A DNA stretch of 64,000 bases, taken from Rhizobium sp. C1. Its GTDB lineage: Bacteria; Pseudomonadota; Alphaproteobacteria; Rhizobiales; Rhizobiaceae. Position numbers and translations under genes: made by a program. Under the pieces are notes generated by a model. It saw only the letters and a list, made by a program, of their open reading frames with translations. It ran no database searches and was not told the origin of the DNA. This document shows, in pieces, positions 29,588 to 62,700 of this stretch (position 1 is the first letter of the stretch; each line of letters begins with the position of its first letter). The stretch covers positions 62,001-126,000 of the forward strand of contig NZ_JAJNCY010000010.1 of the NCBI RefSeq assembly GCF_021026335.1. The letters are read 5' to 3'.

Positions 29588-29714
29588 GAGTCAAGGAAAA
29601 AAATAATTTTTTTGCATTTTGAGGCCCGCCAGACCCCTTCAAAACGAATCTCCTTGATTCAAAAGCGATTCTTTTTTCAGGGCTTTGCGGGGACAGAAAA
29701 TCGGTCTTGGAGTC
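29588..29714. promoter_or_regulatory. GANTC (CcrM methylation) cluster upstream of dnaA
   Basis: Five GANTC sites lie within 127 bases: GAGTC 29588-29592, GAATC 29646-29650, GATTC 29656-29660, GATTC 29667-29671 and GAGTC 29710-29714. About one per 256 bases would be expected in random sequence. CcrM methylates these sites, and methylation state controls dnaA transcription in Caulobacter. Confidence 0.65.
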
Positions 29715-59498: not shown

Positions 59499-59884
59499 GG
59501 TTCCTCCCGGCTTGTGCAATTGTGACGTTTACGCAAACGTCAATTGCTTAACAGCTTTCAGGCCGGATGAAAATTGAAATATGCGACCCTGTCGAGGCTT
59601 CGCCAGCGCTGCGGTAGTGGATAAGATGTCACTTGCTATTTTCGCCGCGGGGCGTTGTTTAGTAGAGCTTCCGGATTGGAGCAGCCTTCGGCATGCGCTC
59701 GAGGCTGTGTCAACGGGAAGGCGGTTGGATCAGGACTGCATTCTCCGCTATGGATTTTTCGGGCGGGCGGGGGCTGCCTCTCATCTCATGCGGGCTTTGC
59801 TGAAATTTTCGGCAAGGCATGCGCAAAACAAGTGAAGCGTGAAACGGTCCGTATGGATTGGGATGCGCTCAGGAGCAGAAGCAT
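59499..59884. other. Intergenic region between nitronate monooxygenase and coiled-coil protein genes
   Basis: 386 bases between divergent genes. Short open frames exist (for example 59581-59835, 84 codons) but lack ribosome binding sites and recognisable features. I see no RNA gene or repeat; the stretch must contain the promoters of both neighbours. Confidence 0.4.
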
Positions 59885-61735
59885 TTGAGTCTGGAAACGG
59901 CCATCAGAAAGGCTCTCGAGCGGGTAGGCCCCGGCGCGGACCCTGAACAACGCGCCCGCGTTTACCAGTCCGCCCGCATGGCGCTGGAAAACGGGCTGCG
60001 GCAGCAGAACGTCACCGATGTCGCGACCGCCACCGAGCAGCGCCGGCAGCTGGAAGCCGCCATCAACCGCGTCGAGCGCGACGCCAAGCTCGATTACATG
60101 GAGCACGAGGCCAAGCAGCGCGCCGCGCGCGAGGAGGCCGAGCGCGAGCAGCGCCGCAAGATGGAGATCGAGCGGGCGGAGCAGGCCAGGGTTCAGGCCG
60201 AGCAGGCGCGCGAACAGGTCGAGCGCGACGCCGAAATGCGCCGCCGCCGCGAGGAGATCGACCGTGAGCGCATCGCCCGCGAACTGGAATACGAGGCAGC
60301 GCAAAGGGCGCTGCGCGACCGCATAGCGGCCCGCGAACAGGCGGCCCGCGAGCGCGCCCTGCAGGAGCGCGAGCAGATGCTGGCTGCCGAACGTCAGGAA
60401 GACGAAGCGCGCCGCCAGGCCGAAGAGGCCCGCCGGCAGGCGCAGGAGCAGGCCGCGCGCGAGGCGGAAGCCCGCCGCCGTGCGCTTGAAGAGCAGGCCG
60501 AGCGCGAAGAGGCGGTGCGCCAGCAGGCGGAACGTGAGCGTCTCGCCCGCGAGCAAGCGGCCCGCGAACTGGCTGAACGCCAGGCCGCCGAGCGCGAACG
60601 TCAGGCACAGGAGCGCGAGCGGCTTGCCCGCGAGGAAGAGGAACGCCTCGCCGCTGAAGAGCGCGCGGCCGAAGAAGAGCGCGCACGTCAGGCCGAAGCG
60701 CGCGCCGCCGAAGAGGCAACACAGCGCGCGGCTGAGGCCGAACGCCTGCGTCAAGCAGAGGCGCGGGCGGCTGAGGAGGCGCGCCGTCGCGAGGTCGCCA
60801 TTGCCGCTTCCGCCATTGGCGGCATGGTGCGCCACGAGGATGCCCCTGCCGGGGACAAGGCCCCCTCCATCGACGACATGCTGTCGAGCGAGCCGGAGCA
60901 TGGCCCTCGGGAGCCTGTTTTCGATATCGTGCCGGAGGTCGCCCATCGTGAAGAGCGGCGTGCCCCGGCCTTTGACATCGAAGCGCCGGAGCCTGCGCAT
61001 TCGGCCGCCTATGCGGATGAGCCGGAGCCGCAGCCGGCGGTTATCCATCTTCCGCCCGAGCGCGCCATCAAGCCGCGCCGCAAGAGCCGCTGGAAAGCCC
61101 GCGCCTTCGCGCTGGTCACGCTGGCCGCCTTTGGTGCTGCCGGATGGTGGTGGGTGGAAAGCACGGGCCTCAGCCTGCCGAAGGCCGTGCGCGATGGGAG
61201 TGTCCCCAATCCGCCACCGACCGTCAAGGAAGACGATTTCGACGGTGCCAAGCAGCTGAAGTCGCTGTCGCGTCAGGGCGGCTATGGCGACGAGTGGACG
61301 AAGCTCTTCGAGGCTGGCAAGACCAAGACGGCAACGGCCGGGGCGCAGGCGACCGCCAAGGTCGAACAAAGCGGTTCGGGCCCCTATCTGGCCGTCACCT
61401 CGAATGCGCCGGGCATTGATGGCTCCGTCGCGATCGAATTGCCGCAATCCGTCATTGCATCGCTGCAGGGAAAGACCTCCAACATCTCGCTGATGCTGGA
61501 AGGCGCCGACAGCAAGCCGGTTCAGGTCACTGTGGAATGCGAATTCGGCGGGCTGGGCAATTGCGGCCGGCACCGCTTCCTGCTGACGCAGAACAAGAGT
61601 GATCTGATGTTCGACGTGACTGTGAAGGATGGTACGCCCCCCGATGGGCCGGGCCGGCTCATCATCAATGCCGACGCCGGCGGTGAGGGAAACAGCGTCA
61701 AGCTCTTCTCGATCCACGTGCTGCCGGGCGGTTGA
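59885..61735 (+). CDS. Membrane-anchored coiled-coil protein of unknown function
   Basis: A 616-residue protein I do not recognise. Residues 1-44 form a small helical N-terminal segment (LETAIRKALERVG). Residues about 45-298 are an extremely Glu/Arg/Ala/Gln-rich coiled coil. A disordered Pro/Glu/Asp region follows (300-390), then a basic patch PRRKSRWK and one membrane segment (about 404-425), and a C-terminal, probably periplasmic, domain with C552 and C560 (a possible disulfide). The start is TTG 59885 with AGGAG nine bases upstream; an earlier TTG lacks one. Topology suggests a cytoplasmic rod tethered to the inner membrane. Own terminator; upstream of gcrA. Confidence 0.85.
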   Translation: MSLETAIRKALERVGPGADPEQRARVYQSARMALENGLRQQNVTDVATATEQRRQLEAAINRVERDAKLDYMEHEAKQRAAREEAEREQRRKMEIERAEQARVQAEQAREQVERDAEMRRRREEIDRERIARELEYEAAQRALRDRIAAREQAARERALQEREQMLAAERQEDEARRQAEEARRQAQEQAAREAEARRRALEEQAEREEAVRQQAERERLAREQAARELAERQAAERERQAQERERLAREEEERLAAEERAAEEERARQAEARAAEEATQRAAEAERLRQAEARAAEEARRREVAIAASAIGGMVRHEDAPAGDKAPSIDDMLSSEPEHGPREPVFDIVPEVAHREERRAPAFDIEAPEPAHSAAYADEPEPQPAVIHLPPERAIKPRRKSRWKARAFALVTLAAFGAAGWWWVESTGLSLPKAVRDGSVPNPPPTVKEDDFDGAKQLKSLSRQGGYGDEWTKLFEAGKTKTATAGAQATAKVEQSGSGPYLAVTSNAPGIDGSVAIELPQSVIASLQGKTSNISLMLEGADSKPVQVTVECEFGGLGNCGRHRFLLTQNKSDLMFDVTVKDGTPPDGPGRLIINADAGGEGNSVKLFSIHVLPGG

Positions 61736-61820: not shown

Positions 61821-62139
61821 GACTCAGCGTCATTTGCCTTCCGTAAGGGCAGGTTGATCCGTCGGAAAGTCAACCGAAATATTTAAATATATCATTTTTT
61901 ATCAAATAGTTGAAAAATAGACAGCCGACTGTGCATCAGACGGGAGTGTTGCCAAAATCCCATCAAGTTGGGGAAAAGCATAGAAAGTGATTCTCGCGGA
62001 TTCCGCCGACTCTTGCCACAGAGTCACCCACCCTTTAGGTTAACAAATAATTACTAGATCGCATGCGGCGGAACTAGTCACCACACTGTAAGCGCGTATC
62101 CCGGCAGCGGACCCCGTCCGCGGCCTCGGTGGTGGATTC
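61821..62139. promoter_or_regulatory. GANTC-rich promoter region of gcrA
   Basis: Six GANTC sites: GACTC 61821-61825, GATTC 61989-61993, GATTC 61999-62003, GACTC 62008-62012, GAGTC 62021-62025 and GATTC 62135-62139. The middle four lie within 37 bases. The stretch 61860-61920 is strongly AT-rich. Expected density is about one per 256 bases. CcrM-methylated GANTC sites and GcrA act together at alphaproteobacterial cell-cycle promoters. Confidence 0.65.
62040..62054 (+). promoter_or_regulatory. CtrA-like binding site upstream of gcrA
   Basis: TTAA at 62040-62043 and TTAC at 62051-62054, seven bases apart, match seven of eight positions of the CtrA consensus TTAA-N7-TTAA. It directly follows the GANTC cluster. 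CtrA represses gcrA in Caulobacter. Confidence 0.45.
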
Positions 62140-62166
62140 TGTAAGGCACAAGGAGCGAATTTGACG

Positions 62167-62700
62167 ATGACGATGGGCTGGACAGACGAGCGCGTCGAAA
62201 GACTGAAGAAATTGTGGTCCGAAGGCTTGAGCGCCAGCCAGATTGCCGCGCAGCTTGGTGGCGTCAGCCGCAACGCTGTGATCGGCAAGGTTCATCGCCT
62301 GTGCCTTCCGGGTCGCGCCAAGGCGGGCGGTGCAGCCACTGCGCGTCCGGCCAAGCGCCAGGCTGCCGCTGCAGCGCCGCGTTCTCAGTCTTTCATGCCG
62401 CGCACGGTCACGCGGACCGTAACCCGCGCCCAGGGCGCGACGATGCTGAAGGAAGAGGTTGAGACGGAAGTCTATTACGAAACGGAGGTGCAGCCCGCAT
62501 CCAACGTGGTCGTGCCGATTTCGCGTCGCCTCACGCTGACGGAACTGACGGAGCGCACCTGCAAGTGGCCGGTCGGCGATCCGATGAAGGACGACTTCCA
62601 CTTCTGCGGCAATGACAGCGCGGATGGCTCGCCCTATTGCACCTATCACGCACGGCTCGCCTATCAGCCATCTGCCGAGCGCCGACGCGCCGGCCGCTGA
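62167..62700 (+). CDS. gcrA: Cell-cycle regulator GcrA
   Basis: A 177-residue GcrA protein, the sigma-70-associated, methylation-sensing activator of S-phase genes in alphaproteobacteria. The N-terminal DNA-binding domain WTDERVERLKKLWSEG followed by SASQIAAQLGGVSRNAVIGK is almost canonical; the C-terminal domain with CKWPVGDP, FHFCGN and YCTYH contacts RNA polymerase. Possible starts are TTG 62161, ATG 62167 and ATG 62173; I chose 62167, eleven bases after AGGAG. The promoter carries GANTC sites and a CtrA-like motif. Confidence 0.95.
   Translation: MTMGWTDERVERLKKLWSEGLSASQIAAQLGGVSRNAVIGKVHRLCLPGRAKAGGAATARPAKRQAAAAAPRSQSFMPRTVTRTVTRAQGATMLKEEVETEVYYETEVQPASNVVVPISRRLTLTELTERTCKWPVGDPMKDDFHFCGNDSADGSPYCTYHARLAYQPSAERRRAGR

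Follow-up and report, generated by a model that had tools for sequence, protein, structure and literature searches.

Clustered GANTC sites on the predicted gcrA promoter of a Rhizobium genome: a conserved layout that may place the gene under CcrM methylation control

What do the GANTC sites crowded in front of gcrA do to the transcription of the gene? We addressed this question in a stretch of 64,000 nucleotides from Rhizobium sp. C1, referred to below as the window. The genome that contains it is alphaproteobacterial, measures 4.53 Mb in 22 contigs, and has Rhizobium and Ciceribacter strains as its nearest named GcrA relatives on the tree described below (best 80 of 582 named loci). The gene product matches the Pfam GcrA family (PF07750) with an E value of 9e-64; its sole NCBIfam match is the GcrA equivalog model, at 161.8 bits, which is below the model cut-off of 280. 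The features of the locus are collected in Table 1.

Table 1. Features of the gcrA locus, in window coordinates.
Feature	Position	Strand	Basis or remark
Conserved upstream element CAAGTTGGGGAAAA	61964..61977	+	About 75-80 bp before predicted start; reverse strand TTTTCCCCA
GANTC site 1, GATTC	61989..61993	.	Context TGATTCT fits YGAKTCK
GANTC site 2, GATTC, clade-specific	61999..62003	.	32 of 104 family upstream regions
GANTC site 3, GACTC, adjoining predicted -35 hexamer	62008..62012	.	80 of 104 family upstream regions
Predicted -35, TTGCCA	62013..62018	+	Family alignment and core columns; family consensus TTGTCA
GANTC site 4, GAGTC, in predicted -35/-10 interval	62021..62025	.	86 of 104 family upstream regions
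Predicted -10, TAGGTT, weak match	62036..62041	+	Suggested by conservation; 17 bp from -35
CtrA-like palindrome	62039..62054	.	Overlaps predicted -10 and predicted +1 (about 62048)
Conserved leader block GCGGCGGAACTAGTCACC	62065..62082	+	Family alignment; between predicted start and leader GANTC
GANTC site 5, GATTC, in leader	62135..62139	.	Leader site common to 82 of 104 family upstream regions
AAGGAG, likely ribosome-binding site	62150..62155	+	Sequence
gcrA	62173..62700	+	Start ATG 62173, from N-termini of relatives; TTG 62161 and ATG 62167 possible alternative starts

The four upstream sites that the first-pass annotation had listed, at 61989, 61999, 62008 and 62021, are all present, with spacings of 10, 9 and 13 bp. 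Two more GANTC sites lie within the span it covered and were unlisted there, one at 61821, which has counterparts at -352/-353 in four of five other genus members, and one in the leader at 62135. The cluster stands out against a sparse background, as the window holds 71 GANTC sites and the shuffle mean is 350. Its rarity was assessed in the window together with 70 segments of 20 kb each from the same genome, a sample of 1,464,000 bp (32% of the assembly) with a total of 1756 GANTC sites. In that sample the region upstream of gcrA is the sole place where four sites fall within 40 bp, and also the sole place where four fall within 60 bp; if the same sites were placed uniformly, 0.019 clusters of four in 40 bp would be expected. 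The core promoter of gcrA carries GANTC beyond chance, as would be looked for in a promoter under CcrM control.

The cluster coincides with a predicted promoter. The TTG of its core is present in 99-100% of the 93 family upstream regions with a core score of at least 11, and conservation in the family extends to the entire 18-mer around the -35. In relatives the predicted -10 is kept as TAG(G/T)TT, 17 or 18 bp from the -35. A TTAA-N7-TTAC site had been claimed at 62040, and the sequence bears it out: TTAACAAATAATTAC spans 62040-62054 on the plus strand and matches 7 of 8 positions. The minus strand from 62053 to 62039 reads TAATTATTTGTTAAC, a complete TAA-N7-TTAAC and the stronger CtrA motif. 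The gcrA promoter has the TTAA-N7-TTAA-type motif expected of a CtrA-bound promoter, and the motif is nearly restricted to one clade. In Sinorhizobium (S.) meliloti a CtrA motif is predicted over the mapped start of gcrA; the strong version lies on the opposite strand, with a weaker TAA-N7-TTACT on the same strand (PMC3616915). Because the arrangement in the window is the same, we predict the start of transcription near 62048. NtrX binding has been shown for the S. meliloti promoter (PMC9223101), and the gcrA passages of the two S. meliloti reports make no mention of GANTC sites (PMC3616915, PMC9223101).

To follow this layout among relatives, we used three sets of upstream regions. The family set consists of 104 gcrA upstream regions, from 100 of 101 family genomes and four more genus members; a genome in which the gene is split over contigs (G090) and weaker second GcrA-like copies (for example, L007) were left out. 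The named set comprises the best 80 of 582 named loci and overlaps partly with the family set, as some loci lie on the same contigs. The order and class set holds 54 loci (25 and 29) among the best 30 matches per search, where the numbers of genomes with matches were 120 and 96; it was made from 58 new loci minus four of the same family, two of which were repeats. Two of the 29 class loci (L150 and L172) belong to the same order as the window, which leaves 27 loci outside the order. For the site counts, each upstream region was anchored where it best fits the conserved core GACTCTTGTCACGGAGTC, and counts that require an anchored core use 84 of the 104 family loci and 78 of the 80 named loci. 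All counts of sites and clades refer to related genomes, not to independent events.

Alignment of the upstream regions across the family had been proposed as a check on the cluster, with lack of conservation as grounds for giving it up, and the alignment shows that the cluster is kept. At least three of the four sites occur in 73 of the 104 family upstream regions, and all four in 29. Fewer than three were found in 31 (none in the stretch examined in 13), and 19 of these 31 match the core poorly, so that the anchor is perhaps misplaced. Sites 3 and 4 occur together in 77 family upstream regions. Site 1 is present in 84, at a distance before site 3 of 18 bp in 45, 19 bp in 36, and 17 or 20 bp in 3; site 2, where present, is invariably 9 bp before site 3. 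Among the best 80 of 582 named loci, 48 have four sites, 19 three, 11 two, 1 one and 1 none. The string GANTC-TTG-N5-GANTC, which requires no anchor, was found in 77/104 family loci and in 75 of the best 80 of 582 named loci.

The variable base differs between sites. In the 84 family upstream regions with site 1 it is T in 65, A in 18 and G in 1, and so is less fixed than the G, A, T and C; an A-rich stretch before this site is kept, and the bases after it are variable. At site 3 it is C in 79 of 80 family instances, and at site 4 it is G in 84 of 86. The gcrA leader is also part of the layout: a GANTC lies between -60 and -22 of the start in 82 family upstream regions (83 with a slightly wider window) and in 78 of the best 80 of 582 named loci, about 38 bp before the start codon. 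Doublets of leader sites 6-8 bp apart were seen as 17 family pairs and 4 named pairs.

Beyond the family, among the matches listed, the two sites that bracket the predicted -35 (GANTC-TTG-N5-GANTC) occur in 13 of 25 order loci from other families, representing 7 of 15 families. The string is present in 1 of the 29 class-set loci listed, that one being of the same order, and in 0 of the 27 listed loci outside the order. Present in other families of the order and in none of the listed loci outside it, the predicted -35 bracket thus characterises the order rather than the class.

The first-pass annotation had also placed the methylated bases on one face of the DNA. This is partly right for the window, where sites 1 to 4 fall at 0, -17, -69 and +17 degrees if 10.5 bp per turn are assumed. 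The three-site layout common elsewhere (spacings of 18 and 13) gives 0, -103 and -17 degrees on the same assumption. The helical face was rejected as a conserved feature: the 13-bp spacing around the -35 is kept and the phase is not.

Work on a close relative supplies a function for such a layout. The gcrA promoter of Agrobacterium (A.) tumefaciens has six GANTC sites in 250 bp and is repressed by CcrM methylation, gcrA mRNA falls when CcrM is overexpressed, and active CcrM lowers the activity of the promoter in E. coli too, where, as the authors point out, alphaproteobacterial regulators are absent (PMC11514494). They propose that gcrA is activated on hemimethylation after passage of the fork (PMC11514494). 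In Agrobacterium larrymoorei (L280) we found GANTC at -218, -179, -169, -160, -147 and -32, that is, six sites within 250 bp, four of which are spaced 10, 9 and 13 as in the window. Because of the A. tumefaciens result, and because A. larrymoorei has the layout of the window, we take the promoter in the window as another instance. The genome of the window encodes one RAMA-domain match over the cut-off, in a frame of 387 aa; judged by domain and size, this protein fits CcrM, and the genome probably encodes the enzyme.

The core of the phenomenon is already published for A. tumefaciens. The likeness between the two promoters lies in the gene, in the several GANTC sites just upstream, and in the CcrM dependence reported for A. 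tumefaciens (PMC11514494). The differences are that the species is another one and that the cited account of the A. tumefaciens promoter resolves neither the -35 and -10 nor the roles of single sites (PMC11514494); for the window we describe the conserved -35 bracket, the leader site and a site 2 that arose once. The Caulobacter ctrA P1 promoter is a second point of comparison. It likewise belongs to a master regulator of the cell cycle, and its activation is described as following replication and hemimethylation of the locus, but it is activated by GcrA (PMC4287350), whereas the methylation repression seen in A. tumefaciens and E. coli needs no GcrA.

Methylation control of gcrA is very likely because the cluster is real, conserved and situated on the predicted promoter. 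The data are best read as a promoter repressed by methylation and released by hemimethylation, rather than as an obligatory switch by which GcrA regulates itself, and we consider it likely that the layout of the gcrA promoter lets CcrM lower its activity through adenine methylation and lets hemimethylation open it. Before the fork arrives the sites would be methylated on both strands, and sigma-70 polymerase would use the promoter poorly. Two of the sites adjoin or follow the predicted -35, with one or two others upstream and another in the leader; sites 3 and 4 presumably exert the methylation effect through the -35. Passage of the fork would leave the sites hemimethylated, which, by analogy with A. 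tumefaciens, would be the active state, so that the promoter would open and give a burst of GcrA. Late in the cycle CcrM would re-methylate the sites and the burst would end. In consequence gcrA is probably switched on briefly just after its own replication, and in the clade of the window CtrA may additionally block the start site. Against this reading stand the weak match of the predicted -10 and the result of a generic sigma-70 scan, which called no plus-strand promoter upstream of gcrA. The near-fixed N at sites 3 and 4 also stands against it, as their conservation may stem partly from the -35 sequence. The 31 of 104 family upstream regions that carry fewer than three sites, and the lack of the bracket in the 27 listed loci outside the order, count against it as well.

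The finding in the window is real, conserved and functionally plausible. A -35 bracketed by two methylatable sites is kept across most of the family and in half of the other order loci listed, and with this the published A. tumefaciens result becomes general and mechanistically testable. With a few point mutations one could learn how adenine methylation, with no dedicated reader protein, silences a sigma-70 promoter.

The cluster had initially been interpreted as a compact autoregulatory switch, in which GcrA would bind the methylated promoter of its own gene as an activator or a repressor, creating a feedback switch. We regard this as unlikely, and as stated it is not supported, since the CcrM effect on the A. 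tumefaciens promoter is also seen in E. coli, which lacks GcrA (PMC11514494). The case for it begins with the observations that GcrA binding depends on GANTC methylation and that GcrA from S. meliloti and from B. abortus can stand in for its Caulobacter counterpart (PMC3667746). Site 4 lies between the predicted -10 and -35, where in Caulobacter a site has been linked to activation at 40-60 min (PMC4287350). YGAKTCK is reported as the preferred context of Caulobacter GcrA, a preference that was not found for Brevundimonas GcrA (PMC7987155). Site 1 fits this motif in 49/76 family instances and in 42/67 instances among the best 80 of 582 named loci, but the motif is found at 0/77 site-3 and 1/83 site-4 instances in the family; in the same named loci the corresponding values are 0/75 and 1/77. 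Site 2 fits it in 4/30 family and 10/48 named instances (best 80 of 582). In the passages of the GcrA literature examined, we found no account of GcrA acting on its own promoter. A division of labour is possible, with site 1 serving GcrA and sites 3 and 4 serving direct repression.

Blocking of the start site by CtrA, and by NtrX, could instead be the main control, with methylation secondary; this we consider quite improbable. It draws on the near-perfect CtrA palindrome over the -10 and the predicted +1, on the CtrA motif predicted on the S. meliloti gcrA start (PMC3616915), and on the reported binding of NtrX to the gcrA promoter of S. meliloti, where it represses the gene (PMC9223101). The palindrome, however, is tied to one part of the tree. 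CtrA-like sites matching at least 7 of 8 positions accompany site 2 in 20/30 family loci and in 35/48 of the named loci (best 80 of 582), but loci without site 2 have them in only 1/54 and 0/30 cases, respectively. In its main text, the ChIP-seq report on CtrA of S. meliloti does not name gcrA as a target; the word occurs there only twice, once in a figure legend about the ctrA promoter and once among the references. In the predictions of Brilli et al., gcrA of Rhizobiales is not controlled by CtrA (PMC2877005).

That sites 3 and 4 read GANTC only as a side effect of strongly conserved promoter sequence, with little methylation effect and no switch, is very unlikely: the N is almost fixed at both sites and the 18-mer around the -35 is kept, but the leader site and sites 1 and 2 are kept at set positions outside the -35, GANTC is strongly depleted elsewhere, and CcrM alters the activity of the homologous A. 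tumefaciens promoter (PMC11514494).

We traced the history of the layout on a tree of GcrA proteins from the best 80 of 582 named loci and the window, rooted against two outgroup rows. One change suffices for site 2 on this tree, on a branch that has 51 rows on one side and support of 99/92. The CtrA-like site requires 7 changes on the tree without outgroups, and since this compares with one for site 2, it is the less stable of the two.

A different, putative element takes up this part of the promoter in more distant relatives. Among the matches listed, many gcrA loci outside the family carry a palindrome such as ACACGACATCTCGTGT just after the -10, which resembles the NrdR box. We built an NrdR matrix from 13 boxes at ribonucleotide reductase genes, picked with the box consensus in a search of 11 genomes. 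NrdR-like boxes scoring at least 8 in the 300 bp upstream of gcrA were found in 43 of the 54 order and class loci listed; the training boxes score 13.8 to 24.2, so that many of the gcrA boxes are weaker. The listed matches include 19/25 order loci (10/15 families; dinucleotide-shuffle mean 0.65) and 24/29 class-set loci (17/20 families; dinucleotide-shuffle mean 1.05). With the two same-order loci removed, the boxes are present in 24 of the 27 listed loci outside the order. Hit density is 3.64 per kb upstream of gcrA and 0.058 per kb in the flanks, and in a control the matrix found boxes in 1/27 dnaA upstream regions. Positions relative to the gcrA start are, for example, -127 (L131), -113 (L163) and -193/-131 (L156).

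The spacing and the bases of these boxes can be compared with those of known NrdR sites. At a threshold of 4, 20 of the 54 loci listed have a pair spaced by 31 bp, and the next commonest distance, 32 bp, occurs in 4; C at position 4 and G at position 13 are kept in 54 of 59 hits. In published work the two NrdR boxes are separated by about three turns of the helix, and a distance of exactly 31 positions leads from the conserved G-C pairs in box 1 to those in box 2 (PMC9110341); NrdR binding has been found with spacers of 14-17 or 24-27 bp (PMC12051234). The genome of the window encodes nrdR, and the sole NrdR-like pair at 31/32 bp (both boxes scoring at least 6) in its 1.464 Mb sample is at a ribonucleotide reductase gene. 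NrdR was rejected as a regulator of gcrA in the window, where no 16-mer in the 300 bp upstream reaches a score of 1 and tandem boxes are missing.

The presence of NrdR-like boxes varies with that of site 2. At a threshold of 5, they are found in 37/54 family loci without site 2 versus 2/30 with it, and in 23/30 versus 9/48 of the named loci (best 80 of 582). The NrdR-like label requires 10 changes on the tree, and for this reason a single loss of the boxes is too simple an account. We offer tentatively, from the sequence comparison, the possibility that the ancestral alphaproteobacterial gcrA promoter was an NrdR target with tandem boxes 31 bp apart over the -10 and start, at which dATP/ATP status would directly gate gcrA. 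The clade of the window would then have weakened or lost the boxes and gained, once, the fourth GANTC and, in most members examined, the CtrA palindrome at the same spot, swapping a nucleotide-pool input for a methylation and CtrA input. The layout shifts on the tree, with a single gain of site 2 and turnover of CtrA-like and NrdR-like sites, are a natural series for the rewiring of a core cell-cycle input.

In the relatives that carry them, the putative NrdR boxes suggest nucleotide-pool control of gcrA. If they work, they would link nucleotide pools to cell-cycle entry, a connection whose mechanism is described as undefined in Caulobacter (PMC12186491), and this side result may matter more than the GANTC cluster. 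The nrdR deletion also gives a hyper-spreading phenotype in Caulobacter (PMC12186491). Simple repression of gcrA by NrdR is disfavoured, because it would not predict hyper-spreading of the deletion. Titles and abstract openings retrieved in a literature search for NrdR and gcrA describe no link between the two.

Further conserved elements flank the promoter. TGGGGAWAA is present in 87 of the 104 family upstream regions, 38-39 bp before the core in 85 of those. The full element in the window, CAAGTTGGGGAAAA, has a single exact copy in the whole genome; with two mismatches it matches 11 places including the exact copy, versus 26 for the reversed control pattern, so that nothing beyond the exact copy stands out. 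A degenerate DnaA box is a candidate identity for the element, which we treat as a lead only. Among the matches listed, canonical DnaA boxes occur upstream of gcrA in 9/27 loci outside the order and in 2/25 order loci, and they occur in 2/104 family loci; the class-set flanks contain none. CAAGTTGGGG was tried as an NtrX site and discarded, as the spacer in the conserved element is one versus the published CAAN2-5TTG, the form of the S. meliloti NtrX sites, of which the gcrA probe carries CAAACCTTG (PMC9223101). RNA structure of the leader was likewise rejected as an explanation of site 5, with a z of +1.36 and 183 of 200 shuffles folding as well as the leader of the window, the only one folded.

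The runner-up GANTC cluster in the 1.464 Mb sample lies at 29588-29714 of the window, in the long gap upstream of dnaA, a gene whose product has DnaA domains. It has 3 sites in 40 bp and 5 in 130 bp, at 29588, 29646, 29656, 29667 and 29710, the middle spacings being 10 and 11. In the dnaA upstream regions of 27 of 30 loci (3 at contig edges were left out) and of the window itself, GANTC is frequent and no fixed spacing was seen by eye.

Upstream of gcrA, at 59858-61735, is a frame of 625 aa with no Pfam or NCBIfam match at 0.001; by eye it is rich in charged repeats and has one membrane-like stretch. More than one GcrA-family match was listed for 25 of the 101 family genomes. In two of these (G029 and G090) the matches are pieces of one split gene, and most of the others are divergent second copies with E values of about 1e-4 to 1e-37, of which L007 (G005:C28) is an example.
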